DNA of 29,101 nt from a virus. The translations under genes were made by a program, and so were the position numbers. Positions 558 to 22,361 of this stretch are shown here, in pieces (within the stretch, counting starts at the first letter, position 1; every line of letters begins with the position of its first letter). The notes under the pieces were generated by a model. It was not told where the DNA came from. It was given only the letters and a program-made list of their open reading frames with translations, and ran no database searches. Location: positions 1-29,101 of the IMG/VR virus record IMGVR_UViG_3300017772_000079, one strand, 5' to 3'.

Positions 558-1679
558 ATGTATGATATTTTAACAGGAAAACAAAGGGCTTTGGTTTTCC
601 CCGTTATGTGTAATGGGCATGTTAAAATAGATTACTCGGAAAATGTGCCGGATTCTGCTGATGATGTAGGATATGGTATTTGGTCGCATAGTGGAGACTT
701 TACTTTTGAAGCAATAGTTACTCCCTATGACATAAATGGTGCTTTTGATACTACTTTAAGAGGTAGGACTCTTACTGCATCAACTAAAATTATGCCTAAT
801 AACGGACATGAATCTACATTAACTAACTATCAAAGTGAAAAATATTTACCCGTCGCTGATAGAATTACCCACGAAATGAGAATATTTTCTAGCACCAATT
901 TTTATATTTCATTAAAAAACGCCACTACAACAACTGCTAATCAACCTTCTGAATATAAAATATTAGTGGGTGTTAAATTAAGTAGTGGGGTTGTTCAAGA
1001 ATTTTTAACTGACAGTTCTGTTATTTTACCTTCTAGAACTAGGTCTTGGGTCTATTCTAGCGATAGTGATTATTACGGCATTAATGCAGATGGTAGAGTT
1101 GAATACGACCAATTTACCACTGTTAATCCAACCGACAATGATAACAATGAGGTAATTACCTGTTCCTCTATTACTGCTAACATGATGCTAGCAGGAGAAG
1201 AAGTATTCATCATTGAAGGAGGCATTTTTACTTCGATAGGGGCGGTAGAATCAATAGATGCAAGTCTAAATACCATCACGCTCACCAGTGCATACAGTGG
1301 CACTCTAAGTAGCACAACTAAACTTTTCCGTAAGACTTATGCCGACCCGACATACATTAACAATTCATTTCATATTGCTTGCACCTATGCTGAATCACCT
1401 AAAGAATTAAAAATATACTTTAATGGTTTATTAGTTAAATCAGGAACTCATGCACAATCTGGAACATTTTCATTTGAAGATGAGGATTTATTTATTGGGG
1501 CTAATGGTAGTGGGGCTGACGGTAGATTTAGTGCGACCACTAATAAGCAGTTTATGGGCGAAATCCATGAAATGTGTTTAACTTCTGTTATTCGCAGAAG
1601 GTTTCCGTCTATTACTAATTTACTACCAAATTATAACGATACATTATTTTACTTTAGATTTGAAGAGGTGGACTTATGA
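558..1679 (+). CDS. LamG/concanavalin-like tail protein
   Basis: This 373-residue protein has the hallmarks of a LamG (concanavalin A-like) jelly roll. Near residues 40-60 is a segment like GDFTFEAIVTPYD. Near residues 270-345 is the classic HIACTY...KELKIYFNGLLV...LFIGANG...FMGEIHEM series. Such domains usually bind carbohydrate or cell-surface ligands, so a role in tail-tip assembly or host recognition is likely. A GAGGTGAT ribosome-binding site precedes the ATG at good spacing. The gene overlaps the start of the giant hub gene by 4 bases, so the two are probably translated together. The middle third, residues about 170-250, matches nothing I recognise. The fold call is from pattern reading; the exact role is inferred. 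Confidence 0.68.
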   Translation: MYDILTGKQRALVFPVMCNGHVKIDYSENVPDSADDVGYGIWSHSGDFTFEAIVTPYDINGAFDTTLRGRTLTASTKIMPNNGHESTLTNYQSEKYLPVADRITHEMRIFSSTNFYISLKNATTTTANQPSEYKILVGVKLSSGVVQEFLTDSSVILPSRTRSWVYSSDSDYYGINADGRVEYDQFTTVNPTDNDNNEVITCSSITANMMLAGEEVFIIEGGIFTSIGAVESIDASLNTITLTSAYSGTLSSTTKLFRKTYADPTYINNSFHIACTYAESPKELKIYFNGLLVKSGTHAQSGTFSFEDEDLFIGANGSGADGRFSATTNKQFMGEIHEMCLTSVIRRRFPSITNLLPNYNDTLFYFRFEEVDL

Positions 1680-4600
1680 CATTAGATTTATTTAAGACTG
1701 GCTCAACATCGGAATATAATTTTGATGTTCCCACTAATCCACTAATGACAACTCAATCTACATTTAGTAGTGATAAGATTTTATTTGCTGCTATTTATAC
1801 AGATGATAGTGAAGAGAGTGTAATTTCGGAAATAGTAAGTGGTGCTACACTACAAGGCGAATATGAAAACTTATCCGTAACTAAGGGATATAATATACGC
1901 TGTTTTGATACCGTTTCTTCAACTGGTAAGGACTTAGCATCCATAGCCTCTACAATAAACGACTACTACTATTTTGTTTTGGTTCACTCCGACAACCACT
2001 TAAAACATCACTTTGCTAGAATTACAGAAATTAAAAACAGCGATGTATTGGGTGACTCTTTCGACTTTGAGCCAAAATTAGGAAACGAGATTGCTCAAGG
2101 AACTAAATTTAAATTATTCAAAGGGCCAGCAATTACTTCAAAAGCAGTTGCTTTTTCTGCCGGAATAAAAGCAGATTTACAGAACAACTTACATGTTGCA
2201 AGGCCACATTTTTGGTTTGTTAATACACTGGATAAGAAAAATCAATTAGACCATAATACAAAATACTTTGCTCGAATGAACGAAGGCTTGGGTGCGAGCA
2301 TTACATTGAATGCTGCTCATAAAGTAACTTTTGTTACTGTTACTGATTATGCACAAACAGTGGTAGATTACAGTAAATATTCTTTAAAGGCGACTATTTC
2401 AGACAATTTGAGAACTCAAGATGCAATAGCAACCTATACTCTAAATGAAAGCCAAAGCGGAAGTGGAAGTGGAGTTACACCTGCATTAGCAACCCAAGAC
2501 GATACAAATTATGATTTATTTGCACCAAACGCAAGAAGAGATACTGACGATTTAATAAATAATACTGCTGCTTATTCGTTTAAAGGCCCAATTAGATACT
2601 TACATTACGATTATTCTCCAACAAAAAATAACTCAACAAACAATATTGTAGATTTAGAACTAGAAGAATCCATTGGTAAAAAAAGCAGTTATGCCGAAAT
2701 TAAAATTGCAGATTCTTATAGAATACTTTCTAAGAAAATAAATACCTATGACCCATTAAGAGTTCGCCATATGGTTCATAGGGGTGACTTTAACGACTGG
2801 GTTTCTTTTGGTGCTAGTATTGGCTCATTTACTGACACTAATGTAAGCACTCAATCAGAATATGCAATTAACACACCAGTTGATTTGACTACCTATTTAA
2901 ATATCAATGATGAAGTTTTAATAAACTCAAGAGTAATGGTAATAGTTGCAGTAAGCGCAACTGATATTAGATTTAGTAGATATAGTAGATTAGAATCAGA
3001 ATTAAATTTTAGTATAACTACTGACTTAGATGATATTTCGGCAGATACTATTATTTACAGAAGAGCATGGAATAGACTAGATAGCACTCTTTTAACGGGA
3101 ATGAGAATGCTAGACAGCAGACAAGACTCTTTATATCTTTCTTTAATTAGTAATGAGTTTTCTTTACTGGAAGTAGGAGTTACTTCCTATATTGGAGAAA
3201 CTGGACTACTTACTCTTTCTTTTGAAAATCAAGGCTACGATAACATAAGTGCTTTAGATAAAATGACAGGACAATATATCATATATAATGAAAAATTAAA
3301 TGGTAGAATTACTCGATTAAAACAAGAAAAAGATAATGGGCAAACCATTATGACTATCAATGGTGCTGATAAGTTAAGAGAATTACTTGACCCTATTATA
3401 GAAAAGAATACATTGTTTTCTAGAGACATTATTTATTCTACTAATAGCCCATATAATAAATTAACAGCATTGGGGGTTAATGCTACTACCAATTTTGATG
3501 ATAATGACTTATTGTTATCAGGTAGTTATTCTTTGTCAGTCGGGGATAAAATTTTTGCTAAATCTACAAGTGGTGCTATTTTGTTCTTAGGAGAAATTGC
3601 ATCGGGTAGTGGAACAACTTATGAGTTCATTAATTTTTCAAAGGCTCAAGTGGCTGCAAAAGCAGCATATAAGACATCAACAAAATACACTGTTTTTAAC
3701 AAAGCCCTTTCTTCTAATTCCTTTGTTTCTTCTGCAACTAGCCTTTATGGAACAGCAAATAAGGGTCTTTTCTTTGAAAGTGGAAATAAATTAGTTGCAG
3801 GGGTAGAGGGAGATAGCCTTGTTGGTTCATCAATAAATACAGACAATCCAAATGCGAGGGGATATTATTTAAGTGAAGCAAAGAACATAAAATCGGATAA
3901 TCCTTTTCAAGCAAGATTAGATGATAATGCTTCTAGTAAGTCCTATGCTACTTTTGATACTGTGAATACTTTAATAGATTTTAACATATTATCTACTCAA
4001 GAAATAGATGGAAACCAAGTTATAGAAATAGCCCCCCATATACCTTTGGCTCTTGGAAGAGTAGATATTAATTATGGTAATACCCAAGATACTACTTTCA
4101 CTTCACTTGCAACTGTTTCAACTGATATAACATCACAAAGGTATATTAGAACAACTGTTGCTACTTCGGAACTGTTAAATTCTATTCCTAAAGTTCTATC
4201 CTTAAATTCTAAACCAAGAAAATATCATGGCAACGCAATATATGTAGATGAAATATTTGCTGGTTTTATGACTATTGCTGTTTTACAAAGTAATGGAACT
4301 GACATTTATATTTATCTTGATAGAGAAGTAACTACTTCACAAGGTTCTACTGTTTCAGTATTAACGGATTATCATAGTTCAAGCATTTTTGAAAGCAGTA
4401 AATTAACACATGAATTATCATTACTCAATGGCGCACACTTACATGGTGGTAAAGTAATAGCCTTATTGAATTCAGTAAGAGGTAACTCAAGTGAAACATT
4501 ACATTTAGATTTTCCTTTATTATACAACGGAGGAACATATGCTTTAACTAATTCAGATAGATTCGGAAGTCCTTATTATAGAATTATTAATATGGAAAAA

Positions 4601-7600
4601 GGAAATGTGTCACATATTAGGCCAAATATCACTACTATAAGTGGACTTAAATCAATTTACAATAAAAAATTAAGTAAAATCCCATATTATGCCTCTTCTT
4701 ACAAATTTAATCCTGCTCACTATATTGACAGCGTATTAGAAAGAGAAATAATAGGAACAGATAAGTTTGATATAAATAGTTGGAAACACACTCTTATTGA
4801 GAGTCGAGGAAACTTACCTCCAAGCGGTTCTAATTTTTTTGATGTTAAAGTTGTAAAAGATGGCGGTTCATTACCATTTACTAATTTTCACTTTGAACCA
4901 AGAGAGCACGAAAGTTCAACCTCTACTACACATGAAAAAACACCATTTGCAGTAAAAGATTTCTTACTACAACCAGACCAAAAGGTTTCTAGAATGTTTT
5001 TGTTTATTAACTCGGATTTAGAGCCATATTCTTCTACTAGAAAGGATAGTCTTTTATACCCTAGTCAAACTAGAAAAATAACAAACTATAATATATTTGC
5101 ACTGGGTCAAAATTCTAGCATCAATTCAAGTGAAACTAAGGACAATTCAGGAGTAGTTACAAATAGAATTTCTTTTAAGGATGGCGACTATTCTTCTTCC
5201 TCGATACTATCCAGCGAAAAAAACCTTTCTGATTTAACTAGATTTGGTATGATGCGATTAACTGAACTTTGTTTCGACTGGACTCTTAATCAATTTGACC
5301 CAGAAAATCCACCGGATAAAGAAACAACGCTACCCATATTTTATTATTATTCACACGACCATTCTTCAAATTTAGGAACATTACATGCAACACAAGATAG
5401 CAACCTTAAACTTTTGACATTTACAGGTGATGTTTCTGTTGCTGATGGTGATTTACTATTAGATAGTCACGGTAGATTTATTGGGGTTTGTGATGGGGCT
5501 AGTGATGGAACAGATGATAATATAGTATTGTTACATGAAAATAGATATAATACAGATGGAGTTTCTCATAATACTGCTACTAATGCAATATATAAAATCA
5601 CTAATACTAATGAGGCTAAATTTACAGGAGTTGGAGTTAAAGATTCATTTGTTAAAAGACACGAAGAAATTCATATGCACAAAGGAGTCGTTTTAAATAG
5701 TGTTTCAAGTTCGGATGGTGCTGGTAATGGATATTCACAAAATGAATGGGAAGCCACTTTTGGAACACATTTAGGAGTTTCTAGTTCTAATGCAAATAAA
5801 AAACACAACTTAATTAATCCTGTAAATATAGGTGGAGATTTTGAACTAATAGATTCTGCTGGCACTGACAATGTTCACAGTTCTAAATTACTAGAATTAT
5901 TTGATGGTATACCAATCATTGATGGAAGTGGGGCTGCTGATGGTAATGCTTTATTTATGCAATATTGGCTACCTATTTTCTTAGATAGGTATTCAATAGA
6001 AGACGGAACTCAATTAGTTTCTTCTGGAATGGTTGGTTCTCACATTAAAGCAACGACTAAACACAAGGATAGTGCTACTAGTGAAAGTGAAACTTATGGA
6101 ATAATAGGACATTCATTGAACACTAATTTCGCAAATGTGGAAACACAAGGGGGAACGGCAATAAGTGGTTCTGATTTAGATAAACTAGCCGATGGAGTAT
6201 TTTTAGGATTTAAGCCAAGACTAAAATCACCTTCATCTTATTCTTCTACTGCTAAAACAATTGGAAATCAAGATATTTTTAGATATAATATAGCCGCTTC
6301 TGATGAATATTCTTGGCTAAAGTTTGTTAATTTGACGGGAACATATTTAGCAACTGGTGGGTTTTACAATGACTCAACAGGAAGTAGTGCTAGCATATCT
6401 GCTGCATTATCCGAAACTTACGGTTTAAATAATAATGCACAAGCAAATATACCTTATGTTATTTCACATGAAATAGACCATAGTAACGGAACAGAAACCC
6501 ATATTATAGTAACTGACTTACAATTGACAGCAAACGCGTGGTATAGAATATTACAACCTAATCACACTTGCACATATGATTTTAGCCCAAAGGAAATAGA
6601 ATTGAATACTCTTTCTTCCTCTTACACTAAAATGCCTTATGCTAATGATGTTTATAAGCAAACTAATAATTATGCTTTACATAAAGCAACGGGAGATAGA
6701 ACTTTACAAGGCAATAATGAGGGTATTCTTTCAATGTATGTTGTCATTGATATTGAAAATGCTTCTGGGCAAAAAAGAAACATCGTTCCAGCCGCAAGTT
6801 TAGACGATATGTTAGAAAACAAAAATGGTAATTTTTGCGTAAGTGATGGAAATAATACTTACTCTACTAATTTTTCCTTTGTTAAAAAAGGAGGGAATGT
6901 AATAGGGAATACTATTTTATTTGATACTATACAAGAAACTCTCGGAGTAGTTTCTGTTTCCGAAATTACTTCAATTACAGTTGGTGGAGAATCTCCTATT
7001 GATACTAATGCTAAAAGGGCTATGATTGGTTCTGTTGTAAGTATTTGTAATGAAACTGAAGATATAATAGAAGAGTTATTTGAAGAACAAAACACTTCTT
7101 TTGATATAACAAGAGAGGACTATCCTTTATTTTTAGCACCTAATTTTGATGGGGTGAGTTTGTTTGAAGCAATCAACTTCTTATTGCAAAAGAAAGATAA
7201 AACTTTAGTTCAAACAGAAGATACATTCACAATTAAAAACAAAGAGAGTTCTGACTTTTATACTAATCTACTCATTAGTGATAATGGAGACATTAGAATA
7301 TATGAATACGATTTATTAGATAGCACCTTTGAAGAATACAATGAAATTATAGTTCACGGAAAATCACATAAGTCTAAAAGAAGAGATATGAGAAGCATTA
7401 ACAAAATAGGTAGAAAATCACTAAAAGTGTTTGAAAGAAAATTAACCACTCAAGAAGAAGTAGATACAAGAGCAAAGGAACTTCTTAGACTACATTCTGG
7501 AGATAATACCAAACTTAGAGTAACAGTAGGCCATGCTAATATAAGCCAACTTAAGGTCGGAGATATAGTAGAAGTGGAAATAAAACAAGAAAACATTCCT

Positions 7601-7945
7601 AGAAACCAATATTTAGTTCTAGAAATAACCCATGCTCTTACAGGTTTAATGGAATTGGAACTAGGAAAATATAATACTCAGATGGAAGATAGATTTTCAG
7701 AATTGGCTATTGATATAAACACCGCCCAAACTCAACAAAATGCTAAATCTAATGAATCAAACATCGGTCTTGGGTTCTTAGATTCGATTAAAATTAAACC
7801 AATGCGCCTATTAGTTCGTAAAAGAACCACTACTGGCGGAGTTACACTTGGTTTCACGACAGCGTTAAATACCGGAAGCACCCCACTTGGATTTACAAGT
7901 GGCGCATCAATCACCTATACTGACTTAGTGGAGGAAGAATTTTGA
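1676..7945 (+). CDS. Giant tail hub/baseplate protein (2,089 aa)
   Basis: This very large protein appears to be a tail hub (gpD/gp27-like) with a long insertion. The C-terminal part, about residues 1,800-2,005, shows the usual hub pattern: an early SLFEAINFLLQ helix, then a beta stretch with NEIIVHGKSH, SINKIGRKS, a TQEEVDTRAKELLRL helix, and LKVGDIVEVEI...YLVLEITHAL...MELELG. An earlier stretch at about residues 515-585 (LNGRITRLKQE...TIMTINGADKLRELLDP) resembles the first hub domain. The roughly 1,200 residues between are Ser/Thr/Asn-rich and probably beta-structured. The hub would sit at the tail tip and anchor fibres. A GAGGTGG ribosome-binding site precedes the start. No frameshift is visible over 6.2 kb. 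The hub call is moderate; the nature of the insert is unknown. Confidence 0.7.
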   Translation: MTLDLFKTGSTSEYNFDVPTNPLMTTQSTFSSDKILFAAIYTDDSEESVISEIVSGATLQGEYENLSVTKGYNIRCFDTVSSTGKDLASIASTINDYYYFVLVHSDNHLKHHFARITEIKNSDVLGDSFDFEPKLGNEIAQGTKFKLFKGPAITSKAVAFSAGIKADLQNNLHVARPHFWFVNTLDKKNQLDHNTKYFARMNEGLGASITLNAAHKVTFVTVTDYAQTVVDYSKYSLKATISDNLRTQDAIATYTLNESQSGSGSGVTPALATQDDTNYDLFAPNARRDTDDLINNTAAYSFKGPIRYLHYDYSPTKNNSTNNIVDLELEESIGKKSSYAEIKIADSYRILSKKINTYDPLRVRHMVHRGDFNDWVSFGASIGSFTDTNVSTQSEYAINTPVDLTTYLNINDEVLINSRVMVIVAVSATDIRFSRYSRLESELNFSITTDLDDISADTIIYRRAWNRLDSTLLTGMRMLDSRQDSLYLSLISNEFSLLEVGVTSYIGETGLLTLSFENQGYDNISALDKMTGQYIIYNEKLNGRITRLKQEKDNGQTIMTINGADKLRELLDPIIEKNTLFSRDIIYSTNSPYNKLTALGVNATTNFDDNDLLLSGSYSLSVGDKIFAKSTSGAILFLGEIASGSGTTYEFINFSKAQVAAKAAYKTSTKYTVFNKALSSNSFVSSATSLYGTANKGLFFESGNKLVAGVEGDSLVGSSINTDNPNARGYYLSEAKNIKSDNPFQARLDDNASSKSYATFDTVNTLIDFNILSTQEIDGNQVIEIAPHIPLALGRVDINYGNTQDTTFTSLATVSTDITSQRYIRTTVATSELLNSIPKVLSLNSKPRKYHGNAIYVDEIFAGFMTIAVLQSNGTDIYIYLDREVTTSQGSTVSVLTDYHSSSIFESSKLTHELSLLNGAHLHGGKVIALLNSVRGNSSETLHLDFPLLYNGGTYALTNSDRFGSPYYRIINMEKGNVSHIRPNITTISGLKSIYNKKLSKIPYYASSYKFNPAHYIDSVLEREIIGTDKFDINSWKHTLIESRGNLPPSGSNFFDVKVVKDGGSLPFTNFHFEPREHESSTSTTHEKTPFAVKDFLLQPDQKVSRMFLFINSDLEPYSSTRKDSLLYPSQTRKITNYNIFALGQNSSINSSETKDNSGVVTNRISFKDGDYSSSSILSSEKNLSDLTRFGMMRLTELCFDWTLNQFDPENPPDKETTLPIFYYYSHDHSSNLGTLHATQDSNLKLLTFTGDVSVADGDLLLDSHGRFIGVCDGASDGTDDNIVLLHENRYNTDGVSHNTATNAIYKITNTNEAKFTGVGVKDSFVKRHEEIHMHKGVVLNSVSSSDGAGNGYSQNEWEATFGTHLGVSSSNANKKHNLINPVNIGGDFELIDSAGTDNVHSSKLLELFDGIPIIDGSGAADGNALFMQYWLPIFLDRYSIEDGTQLVSSGMVGSHIKATTKHKDSATSESETYGIIGHSLNTNFANVETQGGTAISGSDLDKLADGVFLGFKPRLKSPSSYSSTAKTIGNQDIFRYNIAASDEYSWLKFVNLTGTYLATGGFYNDSTGSSASISAALSETYGLNNNAQANIPYVISHEIDHSNGTETHIIVTDLQLTANAWYRILQPNHTCTYDFSPKEIELNTLSSSYTKMPYANDVYKQTNNYALHKATGDRTLQGNNEGILSMYVVIDIENASGQKRNIVPAASLDDMLENKNGNFCVSDGNNTYSTNFSFVKKGGNVIGNTILFDTIQETLGVVSVSEITSITVGGESPIDTNAKRAMIGSVVSICNETEDIIEELFEEQNTSFDITREDYPLFLAPNFDGVSLFEAINFLLQKKDKTLVQTEDTFTIKNKESSDFYTNLLISDNGDIRIYEYDLLDSTFEEYNEIIVHGKSHKSKRRDMRSINKIGRKSLKVFERKLTTQEEVDTRAKELLRLHSGDNTKLRVTVGHANISQLKVGDIVEVEIKQENIPRNQYLVLEITHALTGLMELELGKYNTQMEDRFSELAIDINTAQTQQNAKSNESNIGLGFLDSIKIKPMRLLVRKRTTTGGVTLGFTTALNTGSTPLGFTSGASITYTDLVEEEF

Positions 7946-11798: not shown

Positions 11799-11873
11799 TG
11801 GCGAGCGTGACAGGAATCGAACCCGTATCTTCGGCTTAGAAGGCCAAAATGCTATCCATTACACCACACGCTC
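11799..11873 (-). tRNA. tRNA-Arg (anticodon UCU), CCA encoded
   Basis: Read on the - strand, the sequence folds as a full cloverleaf. The acceptor stem is GAGCGTG paired with CACGCTC. A four-base D stem follows (GTGT with GCAT). The anticodon stem TTGGC/GCCGA encloses the loop CTTCTAA, giving anticodon UCU. The T arm is ACGGG-TTCGATT-CCTGT. The discriminator is G, and a genomically encoded CCA follows at 11799-11801. It would read AGA, a common arginine codon in these AT-rich genes. It sits beyond the operon terminator, so it probably has its own promoter. Confidence 0.93.
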
Positions 11874-16818: not shown

Positions 16819-17748
16819 TCACACCCATGTATCTTCTTGTGCGGCATCACATATTCCAAAGAAACTACAAAAAGAACAGGTCTTATAATAAAACTTAGTC
16901 GGAAACTGTTTCATTTCATACGCTCTAAGAAGTTTAGCAATACCAAACATAACAGAAGTCATAGAACGAGTCTTAACAGGTTGAGCAAAGACATAGTTTG
17001 AAACAGGATAATACCAACCCCAATGAGTAACAGGCACATTAGGTCGTAGGCCGTTCTTAATCAAGACTTCATCATCAGCATTTTCAATTAGCAATTGATA
17101 AAACGCCATTTCTTTCCTCATATCACCGGCCTTGTAATCCTTCCAAGGCCCAGTTTTGAACTCAAAGGGAACATATCCCCCATCTTCCATAAATATTCTA
17201 TCAATGATTCCTTGAATATGAATCTTATAATCACGCTGTAAAGTAAACGGTTGGTAATTAAGTGAGGCATCACCCTTGTATGGGCCTTTAGGTATAACTA
17301 TTTCAGCATCAAACTTTCCTTCGTTACATACAGGTAAGTATTCATCAGTCTTATTTTCTGCCCTTGCTTGTAAATATCGGTTTGTTTCAAACGATGCTAT
17401 GTTTAATGAAATATCATAGTATTCATCAATAGGTGTTATTCCTGTTATGTATTCCCCCACCTCATCAGCAGTCATTGAATCTACTTTCTTAATATCAAAC
17501 TCGTTAAAATAGTCTTCTCTATGATTGTGAAGCACAGTTCCTTTACGCATAGCCTCGCTTTGGTCTTGTGGCAATCGTTGAATGTATGAAAAGTCATACT
17601 TTTTATTACACCAACCAAAAGAACCAAGCGAAGACTTGGTTATTTTTAATATTGGCATAGACGGGTCATCGTAATTCTCCGGCTTCCAGTAATAGGTATA
17701 TTCGCTCATAGCGGAAATAACCGCATTATATTTTTCATCTTGTTCCAT
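16819..17748 (-). CDS. Cas4/Dna2-like RecB-family nuclease with Fe-S cysteines
   Basis: This 309-residue protein carries the PD-(D/E)xK nuclease pattern: an early His (VLHNHRE, H74), D183 in GIIDRIF, E196 and K198 in PFEFKTG, then MAFYQLL. Four cysteines match the Fe-S cluster of Cas4, AddB and Dna2: C47 in GWCNKKY and C291, C294 and C300 in CSFCSFFGIC. Such enzymes trim single-stranded tails or flaps. Here it sits between PolB-C and the primase, so flap or end processing in replication is the likely role. No CRISPR array or other cas gene is present, so a CRISPR role is not suggested. The start lies just after the PolB-C stop. Confidence 0.85.
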   Translation of the reverse strand: MEQDEKYNAVISAMSEYTYYWKPENYDDPSMPILKITKSSLGSFGWCNKKYDFSYIQRLPQDQSEAMRKGTVLHNHREDYFNEFDIKKVDSMTADEVGEYITGITPIDEYYDISLNIASFETNRYLQARAENKTDEYLPVCNEGKFDAEIVIPKGPYKGDASLNYQPFTLQRDYKIHIQGIIDRIFMEDGGYVPFEFKTGPWKDYKAGDMRKEMAFYQLLIENADDEVLIKNGLRPNVPVTHWGWYYPVSNYVFAQPVKTRSMTSVMFGIAKLLRAYEMKQFPTKFYYKTCSFCSFFGICDAAQEDTWV

Positions 17749-17749
17749 G

Positions 17750-18634
17750 TTAAAACCAATCCTCTAATTTTGTTTGTAATTTTCCTGTTCTTATACTTGA
17801 TAAGTCCCAATCCATCGCTCGATAAATTGGTTCGGCCTTTTTCAAGACCTGTTGTGCGTAGTGTTCCCAATCCGGCTCATAATCATTAAAGTCCTCATAG
17901 GTTGTGCCGGACATATACTCTACGACTTTTTCTTCCTTAGTCAATGGGTTTATGAAGGTATCGTTATGCTTTACCTTCATAAATAAATATGAATCATCAA
18001 AATTCATATCATGTTTTTGTTTAGCGTAAAGAACCCCTGCAATTCCTGACCCAACACTAGGTCTTTTATTTTGTAATGTAACAAATTGTCTTGTATCTGT
18101 TCCACATTTTAGACACCACTTAATATCTAAACATTCATGCAAGTCATACTTAGAATTGCATTCGTTACACTTAACGCTAAATCTTTCACTTTTTAACCGA
18201 CTTCTCTTAATTAGAGAAGATACGGGTATCTCTCCTTTCAATACAGAAGAATATAAGTTAAATAACCTAATATTTATTCTGCCCAACGGTTCTTGATTTA
18301 CCCATTGTTTTAGTGCGCTCGTTTGAATTTCTTTCGCAAAGGGAGTTTCGCTTACCCTTTTAGCAGTAAAGCCAGTCATAGTAAATTTGGGTTCTTTTAA
18401 CCATTCTCCATCATCCCAAGTAATCATACCTGCATTTCTATTTTTAGTTGTTCCAACGCCCAATGCCGAATAGTATTTCTCGAATTCTAATACAACGGGG
18501 TGTTGTTCAAGTTGCATTACATTAGGAAAGTGTTCTCTCACTGATGCTTCTATTTCTTTAATTGCTACTTGTGCTTCTTCTACTGAATCTATTTGAACAT
18601 AGATTGAATCAGTGTGTCCATATACTACCTTCAT
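17750..18634 (-). CDS. polB (C-terminal part): Family B DNA polymerase, C-terminal half (motif C, thumb, PIP box)
   Basis: The protein starts MKVVYGHTDSIYVQ, which is motif C. The first Asp of the usual YxDTDS is His, while the catalytic second Asp is kept. A KFTMTGFTAKR segment follows, as in other B-family enzymes. A cysteine-rich zinc-ribbon-like insert lies near the middle (CNEC and later CLKC). The C-terminus is LQTKLEDWF, a PCNA-interacting (PIP) box, ending at the stop. Joined to the N-half, the chain makes a full polymerase. The ATG at 18634 has GAGG ten bases upstream; the TTG at 18643 has it only one base away and is less likely. The gene is separated from its N-half by about 1.3 kb of small ORFs. 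Confidence 0.9.
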   Translation of the reverse strand: MKVVYGHTDSIYVQIDSVEEAQVAIKEIEASVREHFPNVMQLEQHPVVLEFEKYYSALGVGTTKNRNAGMITWDDGEWLKEPKFTMTGFTAKRVSETPFAKEIQTSALKQWVNQEPLGRINIRLFNLYSSVLKGEIPVSSLIKRSRLKSERFSVKCNECNSKYDLHECLDIKWCLKCGTDTRQFVTLQNKRPSVGSGIAGVLYAKQKHDMNFDDSYLFMKVKHNDTFINPLTKEEKVVEYMSGTTYEDFNDYEPDWEHYAQQVLKKAEPIYRAMDWDLSSIRTGKLQTKLEDWF

Positions 18635-18639
18635 TCTTC

Positions 18640-18729
18640 TCAATCCTCAGAAATAGCGGCTAGCATAAGTATAGGCCATGCTACTATAATTGCAGCAATA
18701 ATAAAAACAAATTCTATTAATTTACCCAT
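18640..18729 (-). CDS. Tiny membrane peptide
   Basis: A 29-codon ORF almost all of which is a membrane helix (LIEFVFIIAAIIVAWPILML). The upstream sequence GGGGTGAA may serve as a ribosome-binding site. Its stop lies five bases before the PolB-C ATG, and the end of the gene supplies the GAGG for that ATG. Too short for a family. Confidence 0.4.
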   Translation of the reverse strand: MGKLIEFVFIIAAIIVAWPILMLAAISED

Positions 18730-18734
18730 TCATT

Positions 18735-18899
18735 TCACCCCAAATAATATGTAAACTTGGCCGCAGGTGCGTCATGTTGTTCTTGTAATTCTTGAATTGC
18801 CTTATACATCTTAGTAAGTGCCTTATTGTCTTTATACAATTCAGCCAATTCGTCTTCTAGCATCTTAATTTTCTTTTTCATTTCTTTCAATTCGTTCAT
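18735..18899 (-). CDS. Small coiled-coil protein
   Basis: A 54-codon ORF. The first 40 residues are rich in Lys, Glu and Leu with heptad spacing (MKKKIKMLEDELAELYKDNK), typical of a coiled coil that would make a dimer or trimer. The last 14 residues are extended. Its ATG overlaps the stop of the upstream ORF as ATGA. Function unknown. Confidence 0.55.
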   Translation of the reverse strand: MNELKEMKKKIKMLEDELAELYKDNKALTKMYKAIQELQEQHDAPAAKFTYYLG

Positions 18900-19024
18900 A
18901 TTACCACCGTAATTATTGTTATAATGGTCGCTATGTTCACGATATTTACCATCATCAATATCTTATTACTTCTTGCTATCATAGCCAGCAATTCTTCTAA
19001 TAACTCATTCGTTCTGTCCATCAT
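18896..19024 (-). CDS. Small membrane-associated peptide
   Basis: A 42-codon ORF (43 if the first of three adjacent ATGs is used). An amphipathic helix (NELLEELLAMIA) is followed by a hydrophobic Ile-rich C-terminal segment (IVNIATIITIITVVI). It overlaps the preceding ORF by 20 bases and the next by four. Function unknown. Confidence 0.4.
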   Translation of the reverse strand: MMDRTNELLEELLAMIARSNKILMMVNIVNIATIITIITVVI

Positions 19025-19175
19025 CATAATTGACACCCTGCTCAACTTCTAAAATAATAGCATGACGCTTCAAGTTATTCATCATTTGAAATATTTCTTT
19101 TATTTCTTGCATGGTAATATCCCATGTTTCTTCTGTATCATACGATACTTTAACTGTTACTATTTTTGTTCTCAT
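19005..19175 (-). CDS. Small hypothetical protein
   Basis: A 56-codon ORF preceded by a good GGAGG site (TTGGAGGAAATAACATG). It starts with a beta strand (RTKIVTVKVSYDTEE) then a helix (MQEIKEIFQMMNNL) and a second strand (HAIILEVEQ). The pattern could be a small alpha/beta fold. No family recognised. Confidence 0.5.
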   Translation of the reverse strand: MRTKIVTVKVSYDTEETWDITMQEIKEIFQMMNNLKRHAIILEVEQGVNYDDGQNE

Positions 19176-19176
19176 G

Positions 19177-19389
19177 TTATTTCCTCCAATATATATTATA
19201 TTCTTTATTTCTTTGCTTGATACAAACTCTACTTAAGTATGAACCCACTGAATATACACTCGTTATGTAGTTTGAATTAGGTCTATCCCTAAGTATCTTT
19301 TCATATATTTCTCTAGCAGTAAATGGTTCTTCTTGACCCACTATTGCTTTATCAATCCATCCTCTCATTCTAGAATTCATTTTAGTCAT
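19177..19389 (-). CDS. Small helix-turn-helix-like protein (paralog 2)
   Basis: A 70-residue basic protein with the pattern WIDKAI...PFTAREIYEKIL...YSVGSYLSRV...YNIYWRK. The N-terminal half may form a winged helix, with the last strand as the wing. It closely resembles the 65-residue neighbour upstream: both have an aromatic at the start, FTxxE near residue 25, SYxxR near the end, and a basic C-terminus. AGGAGG lies eight bases before the ATG. Likely a DNA-binding accessory protein; not assigned to a family. Confidence 0.58.
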   Translation of the reverse strand: MTKMNSRMRGWIDKAIVGQEEPFTAREIYEKILRDRPNSNYITSVYSVGSYLSRVCIKQRNKEYNIYWRK

Positions 19390-19583
19390 ATTCTTTTCCT
19401 CCTATATGTCATTGGGCCAATCCTATAACCATGCCTTCTACAATAAGATGCAAGTTGGGTATTACTTCCAATAATAAGACTATTACCTTTTTTGGATATA
19501 ATATTATCTCTTACTTCTTCTACTGTAAATGTTGTATTAAGGCTATTGATTGATTCCATGACCCACTTTTCTATTAATTTCAT
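19386..19583 (-). CDS. Small helix-turn-helix-like protein (paralog 1)
   Basis: A 65-residue basic protein (WVMESINSLNTTFTVEEVRD...ASYCRRHGYRIGPMTYRRKRI). It looks like a tandem duplicate of the following gene, though only the positions of hydrophobic and aromatic residues and the FTxxE and SYxxR motifs are conserved. GGAGG precedes the ATG, which overlaps the stop of the zinc protein upstream as ATGA. Possibly a DNA-binding regulator. Confidence 0.58.
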   Translation of the reverse strand: MKLIEKWVMESINSLNTTFTVEEVRDNIISKKGNSLIIGSNTQLASYCRRHGYRIGPMTYRRKRI

Positions 19584-19831
19584 TTTGATTCCTCCTTCTT
19601 TCTTCTGTATCTGTGTGACTTTTCAATGCTGAACAAGTATTGCCTCTGTTGCTTCATAGTCATACTCGTTGTATGAAAACCCAAACAATACTCGCAGTAA
19701 TAATAATTTAACTTAATACCTTCTTTTCTCTTCTCCATTACAAGTCCATGAACCTTATTAGCATCAGGATAAATTATTTTACCACATCTTTCAGTTATGT
19801 CACAAATTGTTTCTTTCTTTTCCTTCTCCAT
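19580..19831 (-). CDS. Small zinc-binding protein
   Basis: From the ATG at 19831 the protein is 83 residues, with C10 and C16 in ICDITERCGK, and then YYYCEYCLGFHTTS, giving CxxC followed by His. This pattern (two spaced Cys, then CxxC and GFH-TS) occurs in many small viral proteins that look like zinc fingers. A GGAG site stands nine bases before this ATG. An earlier in-frame start at 19876 is possible but would overlap the Cys/His ORF almost entirely. The basic C-terminus (RYRRKKEESK) fits nucleic-acid binding. Confidence 0.68.
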   Translation of the reverse strand: MEKEKKETICDITERCGKIIYPDANKVHGLVMEKRKEGIKLNYYYCEYCLGFHTTSMTMKQQRQYLFSIEKSHRYRRKKEESK

Positions 19832-19913
19832 TTTTTTTCTCTCCTTCACATAATTTACAATGGTGCTTTCCTTCAAATTGAGGGTTGTGTGCTAATGGTT
19901 TTTTACATTTCAT
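19800..19913 (-). CDS. Small Cys/His-rich peptide after PolB-N
   Basis: A 37-codon ORF whose ATGA overlaps the stop of PolB-N. It begins MKCKKPLAHNPQF and continues with GKHHCKLCEGEK, so Cys3, two His, and CxxC may bind one zinc ion. The 32-base overlap with the next zinc gene reduces confidence, but the coupling to the polymerase stop favours a real gene. Confidence 0.42.
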   Translation of the reverse strand: MKCKKPLAHNPQFEGKHHCKLCEGEKKNGEGKERNNL

Positions 19914-21592
19914 ATTTTCATCTCCTTTGCTTTGAATGCTGCTAATCTAATTGCTTCTCTTGCACTTGCAGTAATACTTGCGGCCAAATTAACATCAGCC
20001 CAACCAAATCCTTGAAATGCAACAATGCCATAAAAAGATGCCATTAAACGCTTTACAGCCATTTGATTGTTATTCCACTTAACTACTTCCGAATCGTTTC
20101 CTGCTTCTCTCGCATCTCTCATAAGACGCTTATATTCATTTCGCAACTCTTTCAATTCGAGAACTGCTCTTGGCAATAAGCCCAATTTATCTGTTTTGTA
20201 ATACAACATGTGCTTTCTTGTTACTGGGCTAAAGTCTCTTGGAGTTGCGATATTAACTGCAAACTCCGTAGGTTCTTCGCTTTTAGTTTCAAAAGAAATA
20301 TTGCGAGCAATCATCATTGATGGATAAAGACCGGCAAAATCAAAGGCGGCTACATTCAAATGTAATCCGTTTGTTCCTTCACTAAGCGGGTCGTAAATCA
20401 TAGCACCGTCATAAGTTTCTCTTTTATCCACTTTACTTCCAGTCTTACAAATCCAATCAGCATTACGCATAAAGTAAATAGAACCCATGTGACTCGCATA
20501 AAAACACGCTTCAAACGGTGCAACAAGTAATCGTTGTAGTGCAATAATCGCTTCACTACAAAAGTTTGTTTCATCTATTCTCACAAGTAACTCAACATCT
20601 ATTAAAGCATATTTCAAATAGGCTTCTGTATCTTCAAGCCAACCTCTACGGTAAAACTCATTCGGGTCTTCAAAAATAGTTTCCTTTGATTTACCTTCAC
20701 CGAATAATGTTTGAGATACAAACTCAAGACTCATTGATGGCAATGTTCCTCTTTGTGAATCATTCCATTGTCGCTCAAAGGCAAGGTCTAAATTGAGGGT
20801 TATGCGACCCCCTAATGGCTGTTGTATAGGAGAGAATCCACTTTCACCCTTACTGAAAGTAAAGCCGTTGCCGGTCTTTTTAACCCCGTCTATGCGGTTA
20901 ATTGGAGACATACGCATAGGGTTGATACCCAATGCACAACACCTTTCAAGCAATTTAGGCAAATCGAATTTAAGGCCAAACCATGCTATTAACATATCGG
21001 GGTCTTTATCTATCATAACATTGATAAATGATTCAATCATATCTTTTTCACTACTAAACCATTTAGTTTCAAATTCATGGATAGATTTACCCGAAATCCC
21101 ATAGGGAGTAATATTAGGTTCTAATCCTTTAGGAAACCAAACCCATTGGTAATACTTCTCATCATAATTATCATACATTACAATAGTAGTAATCTTATCA
21201 TGGTGTTCTCCGCCTTGTTGCCATTCCATATCCCAATACCACTTTCGCAGTTTAAATTCAGGTAGTTCATTTAACTTATCAATAGCATATCTAAATCCAA
21301 AAGGCACATCTGCTTCATATGTTTTATTCCACATTTTACGAGCCTTGTAAATATCCGTTGCTTGTTCAACAATAACTTTCTTCAAAGACTTTCCTTGAAG
21401 AGAAACCCAACCTCCTTTCTCATACTTGAAAGAACGAGAAATGTATTTGTTCACTGTATAGTTTTCAAATTCAAACTCATCATCCTCAATAAAGAAGTAT
21501 GGCTCATGTGCTTCAAGTTTAAACTTTCTTTCTCCGTTTTCTCTCCATGCTGTGTAAATATGCTTTTCATCTATACATTTACTAATTATCAT
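19910..21592 (-). CDS. polB (N-terminal part): Family B DNA polymerase, N-terminal half (exonuclease and motifs A, B)
   Basis: The 560 residues include an exonuclease domain with YWDMEW (D121, E123), Exo II ending in FD (D210) and Exo III YALID (Y328, D332). Motif A is DFAGLYPSMM (418-427) and motif B is KRLMASFYG (514-522). The chain then stops at KAKEMKI, just before the expected strand carrying motif C. The missing part is encoded separately at 17750-18634. The halves join with the expected number of residues between motifs B and C, so this is a clean split and not a broken gene. The start follows the clamp gene stop with GGAGG before it. The product must pair with PolB-C to polymerise. 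Confidence 0.93.
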   Translation of the reverse strand: MIISKCIDEKHIYTAWRENGERKFKLEAHEPYFFIEDDEFEFENYTVNKYISRSFKYEKGGWVSLQGKSLKKVIVEQATDIYKARKMWNKTYEADVPFGFRYAIDKLNELPEFKLRKWYWDMEWQQGGEHHDKITTIVMYDNYDEKYYQWVWFPKGLEPNITPYGISGKSIHEFETKWFSSEKDMIESFINVMIDKDPDMLIAWFGLKFDLPKLLERCCALGINPMRMSPINRIDGVKKTGNGFTFSKGESGFSPIQQPLGGRITLNLDLAFERQWNDSQRGTLPSMSLEFVSQTLFGEGKSKETIFEDPNEFYRRGWLEDTEAYLKYALIDVELLVRIDETNFCSEAIIALQRLLVAPFEACFYASHMGSIYFMRNADWICKTGSKVDKRETYDGAMIYDPLSEGTNGLHLNVAAFDFAGLYPSMMIARNISFETKSEEPTEFAVNIATPRDFSPVTRKHMLYYKTDKLGLLPRAVLELKELRNEYKRLMRDAREAGNDSEVVKWNNNQMAVKRLMASFYGIVAFQGFGWADVNLAASITASAREAIRLAAFKAKEMKI

Positions 21593-21593
21593 T

Positions 21594-22361
21594 TTAATTT
21601 CCTCCCGAATACGGGGCTTTTAATATCATTCTGTTATTGGCTACAATAATTAAAGGGAATTCATCTTTCACATAAAAGTTAAGAGTCTGTCCTTTTTCAA
21701 AGAAGTTATGTAGCGGGCCTGAATATTCAAGCGTTGCGTCTTCTCCTATCGCTGATGCTAATTGAATTGTTTGTTCATATTGGTTTGAAGCGTTTGCTCT
21801 ACTTGAAAAGGTTACATTACCACCGAGATAGTTTAGTTTGTAAACTCCACTCTTAACTAATTCACAAAGACTTATTGCTTCATTAAAAATATCACTATTT
21901 AATTGAAATGCCCCTTCAAAAGTTTTTGAGCCAAAAGACCAAAGTTTGTCTAATGCTTCTTCATATGAAATGTGCTTTACCATTTCTCTAATACGAGAGA
22001 TAGCATCCATGTTTGGGTGATTAACCACCATAGGTAGAGAAGCCTTCTTTGTTCCAGAAGTTAATTTCAAAAAGTCTCCACTCTCAAAGAATACACTTTC
22101 ACCAAACTTTTTCAAGTAAGGAATAATAAAATTAGCATCACCAATAAAAGAACCATTCGTTACGCCTTCTACGGTTAATGTAATATTCATTCCAAATGTA
22201 GCATCCCCGTTCCAAATCTCCAAAGAATTATCATTAAGTGTCATGTAAAAGTAAGAACCCATCTTAGATGAGCCAAGTCCTCCATTACCTAGATACTTTC
22301 CTTTTCCTTGAATGTCTGTTAATGCTTTCTCCATTTGTTTGTTATTCACTACGAATTTCAT
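21594..22361 (-). CDS. PCNA-like sliding clamp
   Basis: The 255-residue length and the layout fit a PCNA-type clamp. The C-terminal part has the expected series GPLHNFFEKGQTLNFYVKDE followed by PLIIVANNRMILKAPY, equal to the second domain's final strands in archaeal PCNA. The N-terminal domain (MKFVVNNKQMEKALTDIQGK) and a middle section with helical and strand alternation also fit. Two neighbouring replication proteins, PolB-C and the RFC-large-like protein, end in PIP boxes, which supports a clamp here. It lies directly upstream of PolB-N. The ATGA overlaps the preceding stop. Sequence likeness is moderate, context is strong. Confidence 0.82.
   Translation of the reverse strand: MKFVVNNKQMEKALTDIQGKGKYLGNGGLGSSKMGSYFYMTLNDNSLEIWNGDATFGMNITLTVEGVTNGSFIGDANFIIPYLKKFGESVFFESGDFLKLTSGTKKASLPMVVNHPNMDAISRIREMVKHISYEEALDKLWSFGSKTFEGAFQLNSDIFNEAISLCELVKSGVYKLNYLGGNVTFSSRANASNQYEQTIQLASAIGEDATLEYSGPLHNFFEKGQTLNFYVKDEFPLIIVANNRMILKAPYSGGN

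Follow-up and report, generated by a model that had tools for sequence, protein, structure and literature searches.

The virus record IMGVR_UViG_3300017772_000079 of IMG/VR, which was analysed over its whole length (29,101 bases, referred to as the window), encodes a family-B DNA polymerase (PolB) in two neighbouring genes on the minus strand, PolB-N and PolB-C, with a cassette of small open reading frames (ORFs) between them. The features that define the split are as follows.

19910..21592, minus strand: PolB-N, 560 amino acids (aa), with the N-terminal domain, the 3'-5' exonuclease, the first part of the palm (motif A) and the fingers (motif B)
19922..19927, minus strand: Shine-Dalgarno (SD) sequence AAGGAG within the last PolB-N codons, assigned from the SD match and locked synonymous codons
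18635..19909, minus strand: cassette of 1,275 nucleotides (nt) between the PolB-N stop codon and the PolB-C ATG
17750..18634, minus strand: PolB-C, 294 aa from the ATG, with the motif C strand pair, the remaining palm and the thumb
18605..18622, minus strand: motif C, YGHTDS, with His in place of the first Asp of the usual DTD
18101..18169, minus strand: CxxC...CxxC stretch in PolB-C, zinc-ribbon-like by eye, with conserved Cys columns
17753..17776, minus strand: clamp-binding tail resembling a PCNA-interacting peptide (PIP) box, QTKLEDWF, assigned from the C-terminal pattern

PolB-N terminates in KAKEMKI, while PolB-C begins MKVVYGHTDS from the ATG at 18634, another in-frame start, a TTG, being located upstream at 18643. 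Both proteins matched the Pfam family DNA_pol_B (PF00136) over successive stretches of its 453-position profile (29-193 for PolB-N and 221-446 for PolB-C), with scores of 68.7 and 36.2 bits, respectively, both above the cut-off of 23 and consistent with family-B polymerases. AlphaFold models built from family alignments (mean predicted local distance difference test, pLDDT, of 87.6 for PolB-N and 82.5 for PolB-C) showed that PolB-N superimposes on residues 2-533 of KOD polymerase (4k8z_A, Z 27.5, root mean square deviation (rmsd) 3.0, 479 aligned), and similarly on 7tqw_A (Z 27.7, rmsd 3.1, 479 aligned). PolB-C superimposes on residues 534-756 of the KOD enzyme (4k8z_A, Z 12.7, rmsd 4.1, 212 aligned), and together the two predicted structures cover the polymerase. 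Invariant alignment columns place the exonuclease residues, motif A and motif B in PolB-N and motif C in PolB-C. The cut lies four residues ahead of the motif C Tyr, not inside the motif. In the model of PolB-N alone, pLDDT stays below 50 through residues 396-419, a stretch leading to the motif A Asp; this would fit a palm sheet awaiting the motif C hairpin of PolB-C. A reading made earlier from the letters of the window (the sequence-only reading) had described these two ORFs as halves of one PolB, cut cleanly just before motif C and each deprived of essential catalytic parts, and had given the same two termini; the profile and structural comparisons bear out this description.

By sequence, PolB-C gave just eight weak matches in the PDB (best E 2.6e-6) and none among 50,697 phage records at E 1e-5. 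In an alignment of 62 sequences its C156 and C159 are invariant and C177 is at least 90% conserved. The C-terminal tail resembles the PIP-box consensus, and the pattern Q..[LIM]..[WFY][WFY] closes 153 of 177 complete PolB-C proteins, which is consistent with a polymerase subunit that binds the sliding clamp. Motif C reads YGHTDS in all 188 loci described below, which keep the second Asp of DTD alone, and YGDTDS in the three haloviruses used for comparison.

The division of the polymerase is shared by the relatives of the window. Viral scans (best 80 of 511, 80 of at least 475, 80 of 460 and 80 of 545 matches, and 16 of 16) and a genome scan (1 of 1) gave 327 sequences including the window, of which 278 carried both parts, 45 PolB-N only and four PolB-C only; none of the N-only loci extended more than 2.5 kb downstream. 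Removal of 90 junction duplicates from the 278 left 188 distinct loci, which are mutually related, their number not being that of independent events. All 188 are cut at the same site, none has both parts in a single ORF, and the first aligned PolB-C codon is ATG in 182. Among these loci the parts are thus neighbouring genes, each lacking essential elements, with no fused copy. A tree of 168 of the 188 loci, rooted on the three haloviruses, resolved two branches of 87 and 81 loci (supports 0.955 and 0.948), although the node of the family as a whole had a support of just 0.64. As both main branches are split throughout, the split is, on the sequences sampled, at least as old as this family. Exact DNA patterns for a fused gene, with linkers of 39 and 33 nt (the spacings of 83 and 62 of the 182 loci with both pattern pieces), found no match in IMG/VR, in a scan that left out linkers of 36, 42 and 45 nt and is blind to fused genes lacking the VVYGHTD codons. 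The search of related viral genomes for the same split and for whole versions, which the sequence-only reading had envisaged, therefore returned 188 split loci and no fused one.

Likewise, no complete PolB was found in 24 records, the window included. Of these, 21 had one PolB-N and one PolB-C match and two were fragments with a single half; the remaining contig, of 184.7 kb, had two N/C pairs. This contig (locus L049, 184,733 bases) also has two chaperonin matches and may represent joined genomes or a chimera. Among other individual loci, L030 and L082 belong to a record near-identical to the window in which the PolB-N match starts from residue 70, probably reflecting a stop in the N frame and possibly a frameshift or sequencing error. 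L133 has an additional in-frame stop within the PolB-N tail, two codons ahead of the usual one, and L176 is a contig from this virus family inside a genome record labelled Maricaulis sp. MAG, probably a binning error.

Both halves appear to be maintained by selection. In 14 hand-picked pairs, one of which had saturated synonymous divergence (dS) in PolB-C and was left out of the ranges, the ratio of nonsynonymous to synonymous divergence (dN/dS) was 0.02-0.24 for PolB-N and 0.04-0.25 for PolB-C (13 pairs with finite dS); by this measure both proteins are under purifying selection and both are kept. These values bear on the proposal that the two halves are debris without a function, or a product of sequencing or assembly, for which the His at the first Asp of motif C could be cited. 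The identical division of 188 of 188 loci, the strong purifying selection that both halves show in the tested pairs, the conserved clamp-binding-like tail and the lack of a second complete polymerase in the 24 records leave this proposal scarcely credible. An assembly artefact in particular is refuted by recurrence, and neither this nor a second complete PolB, the two hazards that the sequence-only reading had named alongside an intein, was encountered.

The distance between the motifs on either side of the cut was also compared. When the window halves are joined, 43 residues separate the G of the motif B YG from the Y of motif C, as in the intact PolB of the halovirus HRTV-27 (both counted by eye). 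The spacing in Pfu fits the same value as well, given its residue numbers and the position of Asp541. Across the 182 of 188 loci with both marker pieces, and presuming a constant YG-AIR length, the joined spacing was 43 residues in 83 loci and 41, 42, 44 or 45 in 99. The proposal that no residue had been gained or lost at the split thus holds for the window but not for every relative.

The end of PolB-N displays the properties of a ribosome-binding site. An SD match of at least four positions was present in the last 20 nt of PolB-N in 188 of 188 loci, compared with 34% of control stretches inside the same gene, and a match of at least five in 21% versus 5%. Upstream of PolB-C the corresponding values were 90% and 49%. 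Codon choice follows the same pattern: in the 100 loci with A-[KR]-E tails, Lys is encoded by AAG in 89 of 89 cases and Glu by GAG in 94 of 100, while these codons account for 44% and 22% of usage, respectively, in the rest of the same PolB-N genes. In 55 other loci the tail is of the FKV[MR]E type, encoded by AAGGTGATG with FKVME and most commonly by AAAGTGAGG with FKVRE. The first ATG is at -4 relative to the end of the PolB-N stop codon in 135 of 188 loci and at -1 in 29. These data provide strong sequence evidence that the PolB-N tail serves two functions, as coding sequence and as a signal for translational restart, and suggest that translation of the two parts would be coupled in the cell.

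These observations also bear on whether a full-length polymerase is still made, be it by ribosomal frameshifting or bypassing, by splicing of the RNA or by a split intein that escaped recognition and ligates the two parts. Such a product would be in keeping with a joined spacing that fits intact PolBs, and in four loci, described below, in which the two frames overlap by 4 nt, a frameshift is conceivable. A precedent for a split intein is the PolB of Nanoarchaeum equitans (PMC4104785). No intein family was detected in either half, however (Pfam, E 1e-3), so that the intein raised as a possible objection by the sequence-only reading was looked for and not found, and a split intein was rejected; that the 100 PolB-N proteins noted above end one to five residues past A[KR]E was also counted against it. 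A structured RNA at the split was rejected, as an Rfam scan of the window gave a tRNA only. The gaps to be bridged reach 2.4 kb of coding sequence that turns over, and the SD sequences and ATG starts described above point to PolB-C being initiated in its own right. Production of a full-length protein is therefore considered very unlikely.

The sequence-only reading had counted eight tiny genes with coupled starts between the halves, and the cassette indeed holds eight ORFs, which encode 29-83 aa; clear SD sequences and stop/start overlaps are seen at several of them (a 27-aa TTG-started frame within ORF2/ORF3 is left out of the count).

ORF1, 19800..19913, minus strand: 37 aa; begins within the PolB-N stop (ATGA overlap); zinc-binding-like by eye, being Cys/His-rich at four positions
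ORF2, 19580..19831, minus strand: 83 aa from an ATG with an SD sequence; 98 aa from an upstream TTG
ORF3, 19386..19583, minus strand: 65 aa; helix-turn-helix (HTH)-like by eye; SD sequence AAGGAGG; overlaps the ORF2 stop
ORF4, 19177..19389, minus strand: 70 aa; HTH-like by eye; overlaps the ORF3 stop
ORF5, 19005..19175, minus strand: 56 aa; cluster present in 35 of 51 loci
ORF6, 18896..19027, minus strand: 43 aa; hydrophobic C-terminal half
ORF7, 18735..18899, minus strand: 54 aa; coiled-coil-like by eye; more frequent than any other cassette gene in the first set of loci
ORF8, 18640..18729, minus strand: 29 aa; one hydrophobic segment; single copy in the 51-locus clustering

Database matches to these proteins were sparse. 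Pfam gave SNAD3 alone for ORF2 and ABC_tran_CTD alone for ORF7, both below cut-off, and nothing for ORF3, ORF4 and ORF5. Clustering of 539 cassette ORFs from 144 loci yielded 85 clusters, of which 36 had a single member and none spanned all loci, counts that are approximate because the greedy choice of ORFs drops overlapping small ones, including ORF1 and ORF6 of the window. The ORF2 cluster occurs in eight of the 144 loci. ORF1, which overlaps the TTG form of ORF2, and ORF6 resemble by eye clusters found in 26 and 56 of the 144 loci, respectively. ORF7 occurs in 81 of the 96 loci of the first set (the window plus the loci from three earlier scans, a grouping that is not a clade) and in none of 48 other loci; a search for this protein elsewhere confirmed, among the matches listed, at least three loci, all on contigs already sampled. 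Judged from these clusters, cassette contents turn over almost completely. The frequency of ORF7 in the first set could be taken to mean that ORF7 bridges the halves as a third subunit of the polymerase, the cassette then being a functional part of the enzyme. Its absence from the 48 other loci, and the existence of five loci with no cassette, led us to reject ORF7 as an obligatory third subunit and make a role of this kind improbable.

The interval between the halves varies from -4 to 2,392 nt across the 188 loci (median 691). It exceeds 100 nt at 95% of split junctions, compared with 7% of junctions between the upstream clamp gene and PolB-N (185 loci) and 26% of those between PolB-C and the downstream nuclease gene (171 loci), where the medians are 4 and 1 nt, respectively. 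In the five cassette-free loci PolB-N and PolB-C are joined by an ATGA overlap (L217, L281, L315 and L320) or by TAATG (L266). They are scattered over four positions within the 81-locus branch; L315 pairs with L320 as its nearest relative, while the nearest relatives of L217, L281 and L266 carry cassettes (the pairing of L281 has a support of just 0.50). The cassette as one conserved insertion was rejected, as none of the 85 clusters is universal. Since the split is common to both branches, the contents turn over and five loci are insert-free, the data argue against one cassette having broken the gene. The view of the sequence-only reading that a cassette had been inserted is thus correct in that small genes lie between the halves, and incorrect in that no single insert divided them.

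Some cassettes contain nuclease genes. Pfam identified MUG113/T5orf172 (GIY-YIG-type) domains in L015 and L051 and an HNH domain in L066, while PHROG matches were to HNH proteins in L102 and L134 and to an endonuclease VII-like protein in L159; five of the eight window cassette ORFs were scanned and gave no nuclease match. The PolB-N tail peptide recurs at the end of three of the six nuclease genes, as KAKEMKE in L051, AKEMKI in L102 and KAKEMEV in L134. These genes invite the explanation that a mobile nuclease, either a homing endonuclease or an intein or intron remnant, broke the polymerase gene, the cassettes being its decayed remains and the split being tolerated rather than used. The position of the split beside motif C, near the Pol-c intein site, was counted in its favour. 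An erratic intein excision has been proposed for Methanobacteriales by Makarova 2014 (PMC4104785). Conversely, the site is four residues before the motif C Tyr and not within the motif, no ORF cluster is common to all cassettes, and the scanned window ORFs are free of nuclease matches. This explanation is possible, if on balance unlikely, and a mobile-nuclease origin can coexist with a polymerase that works as two subunits.

Copies of the PolB-N tail were also sought at the DNA level. A copy matching at least 19 of 26 positions was found in 12 of 177 cassettes and in none of 177 shuffled cassettes or 177 PolB-N stretches; at 18 of 26 the numbers were 25 compared with 3 and 6 in the controls, and at 17 of 26 they were 41 compared with 21 and 11. 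Half exchange at or near the junction is exemplified by a few pairs of loci. In eight discordant pairs one half was more than 93% alike in DNA and the other less than 78%, whereas in 59 further pairs both halves were alike. L014 matches L012 and L015 up to exactly the last PolB-N base. L014 is 97.5% identical to L015 through the end of PolB-N and thereafter 95% identical to L101, the L014/L101 match starting at an internal tail copy with 24 nt shared. The breakpoint of L049/L039 is 4 nt ahead of the PolB-N end, those of L165/L039 and L232/L231 are inside the cassette, and that of L232/L223 is exactly at the PolB-C start.

Collectively, the sequence data make it probable that the window and its relatives encode a permanently split family-B polymerase whose two subunits arise by coupled translation, the junction between them being a site of gene capture and recombination. 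Two genes of an operon-like cluster would specify an N subunit (N-terminal domain, exonuclease and motifs A and B) and a C subunit (motif C, thumb and clamp-binding-like tail), which are predicted to fold together non-covalently into the complete replicative polymerase. The SD sequence in the last PolB-N codons, together with a stop codon that in most cases shares bases with the following start (ATGA or TAATG), would permit an immediate restart of the ribosome. In a few viruses the gene reached in this way is PolB-C; in most, tiny genes and sometimes an HNH or GIY-YIG nuclease would have entered at the stop/start junction. Some incoming genes end in a copy of the SD-ATGA stretch, and the downstream gene could thereby stay coupled. 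Since genes that enter at the junction would retain coupling, it is proposed to act as a capture and recombination site within the replication gene cluster. The sequences directly show the split and its recurrence in all loci read, the embedded SD sequence, the variable cassette, the purifying selection, the complementarity of the predicted structures and the examples of half exchange; assembly of the subunits, their activity, coupled translation in the cell and the mechanism of insertion are inferences from these. A more specific version is advanced tentatively, at somewhat less than even confidence: an ATGA restart site within the catalytic palm may itself be the gene-capture site, the PolB-N end being doubly selected, for its protein sequence and for ribosome binding, and 3' copies of 20-25 nt carried by incoming tiny genes and nucleases may serve as the crossover points at which cassettes are added or dropped and halves swapped among viruses.

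Several observations weigh against a working two-subunit enzyme with a recombining junction. Every locus has His in place of the first motif C Asp, which is unusual for an active PolB, the spacing across the joint differs by several residues among loci, and the PIP-like pattern is missing from 24 of 177 PolB-C tails. On RB69 polymerase PolB-N corresponds to residues 6-606 and PolB-C to 615-901, eight residues between them being uncovered. The evidence for the split family as a whole derives from genes on metagenome contigs. With respect to recombination, strict tail copies are limited to 12 of 177 loci, and the controls were drawn once each; the L232/L228 breakpoint is inside PolB-C; and L014 or L049 could be assembly chimeras. 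A general excess of exchange between PolB-N and PolB-C was not supported by the distances, which correlate at 0.90 between the two proteins compared with 0.76 between the halves of PolB-N. As the former value is not below the latter, the case for exchange rests on the eight discordant pairs set against the 59 concordant ones. Finally, the tree was built from joined PolB-N and PolB-C, although the halves can recombine.

If the two-subunit model is correct, a marine virus group runs its replicative polymerase as two non-covalent subunits, with a palm active site drawn from two chains and a polymerase cut beside its catalytic aspartate. The cassette-free loci and the locked PolB-N codons would make the question of how a gene splits and stays split directly testable, and the junction suggests a route by which small viral genes may be added to a cluster with downstream expression intact.

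The genes that flank the split polymerase, and a further ORF and a tRNA of the window, are listed below.

21594..22361, minus strand: putative gene for a DNA sliding clamp, immediately upstream of PolB-N
16819..17748, minus strand: gene for a PD-(D/E)XK (Cas4/RecB-like) nuclease, immediately downstream of PolB-C (Pfam PF12705, E 1.1e-10)
11799-11873, minus strand: tRNA-Arg (anticodon TCT)
1676-7945, plus strand: ORF of 2,089 aa with no Pfam or PHROG match at E 1e-3

The clamp protein of the window itself had no Pfam or PHROG match; its putative identity derives from a PHROG processivity factor matched by 6 of 19 family members (best E 1.3e-7), with weaker signals from Pfam DNA_pol3_beta_3 in 2 of 19 members (best E 0.013) and a PDB profile search (best E 0.12). 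MCM Pfam matches in 5 of 14 records were all below cut-off. A chaperonin was found in 7 of 14 scanned records, and not within the 29 kb window.

The sequence-only reading did not know of this arrangement. The figure legend of the International Committee on Taxonomy of Viruses (ICTV) profile for Aoguangviridae (magroviruses) lists 'PolB-NTD/CTD' without comment, and other split PolBs are known. The Aoguangviridae/Magrovirales, exemplified by Poseidoniales virus YSH_150918, comprise tailed viruses of archaea whose genomes of 90-100 kb include a replication gene cluster. Nine scanned contigs of the present family are similarly 92-98 kb, and on the basis of this size and the chaperonin in half of the scanned records the window likely derives from a magrovirus relative. 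The virus probably infects archaea, and we infer Poseidoniales as a candidate host. The text of the Aoguangviridae profile is silent on the split and its position, and on the cassette and its variation. The PolB-NTD/CTD split itself is thus probably already visible in annotation, and the present sequences indicate that PolB-N/PolB-C is an old, general split of a viral replicative polymerase. The embedded ribosome-binding site, cassette turnover, cassette-free forms and junction breakpoints were not met in the portions of the literature covered by our search, a scope that lay outside Philosof 2017, Zhou 2023 and Prabhu 2025. By contrast, the haloarchaeal tailed viruses HRTV-27, HF1 and HCTV-5 have an intact PolB in a single gene, with the motif C YGDTDS; their polymerases were among the best-covering PolB-N matches in the 50,697 phage records, at ∼25% identity.

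Among cellular polymerases, the divided PolB3 of Methanobacteriales was reportedly described by Kelman in 1999. It is a cellular gene and belongs to another PolB group. PMC4104785 presents it as two genes for which erratic excision of an intein was proposed. The same source describes the N. equitans PolB as encoded by two genes; these are non-adjacent and their products are joined via a split intein, unlike the window parts with their lack of an intein domain.

Another viral parallel is in the T4-like Aeromonas phages 25 and 44RR2.8t, in which the family-B replicative polymerase of a tailed virus is likewise encoded by two adjacent genes. The split site is not the same. The Aeromonas cut lies ∼50 residues earlier, before motif B, whereas the window is cut between motifs B and C: relative to the PolB-N profile, 43A (498 aa) aligns no further than position 501 of 555, while 43B carries the motif B stretch (profile 492-548). 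As one cut precedes motif B and the other follows it, the two splits are taken as separate events. In addition, the T4-like halves are separated by one homing endonuclease gene, as in phage 25, or by a short untranslated stretch, in contrast to a cassette of tiny genes. The parts of the split gp43 of Aeromonas phage 25 (43A/43B) co-purify and are polymerase-active, as reported in PMC2988022. By analogy, gp43A/43B is the nearest functional precedent for the two-subunit polymerase proposed here.

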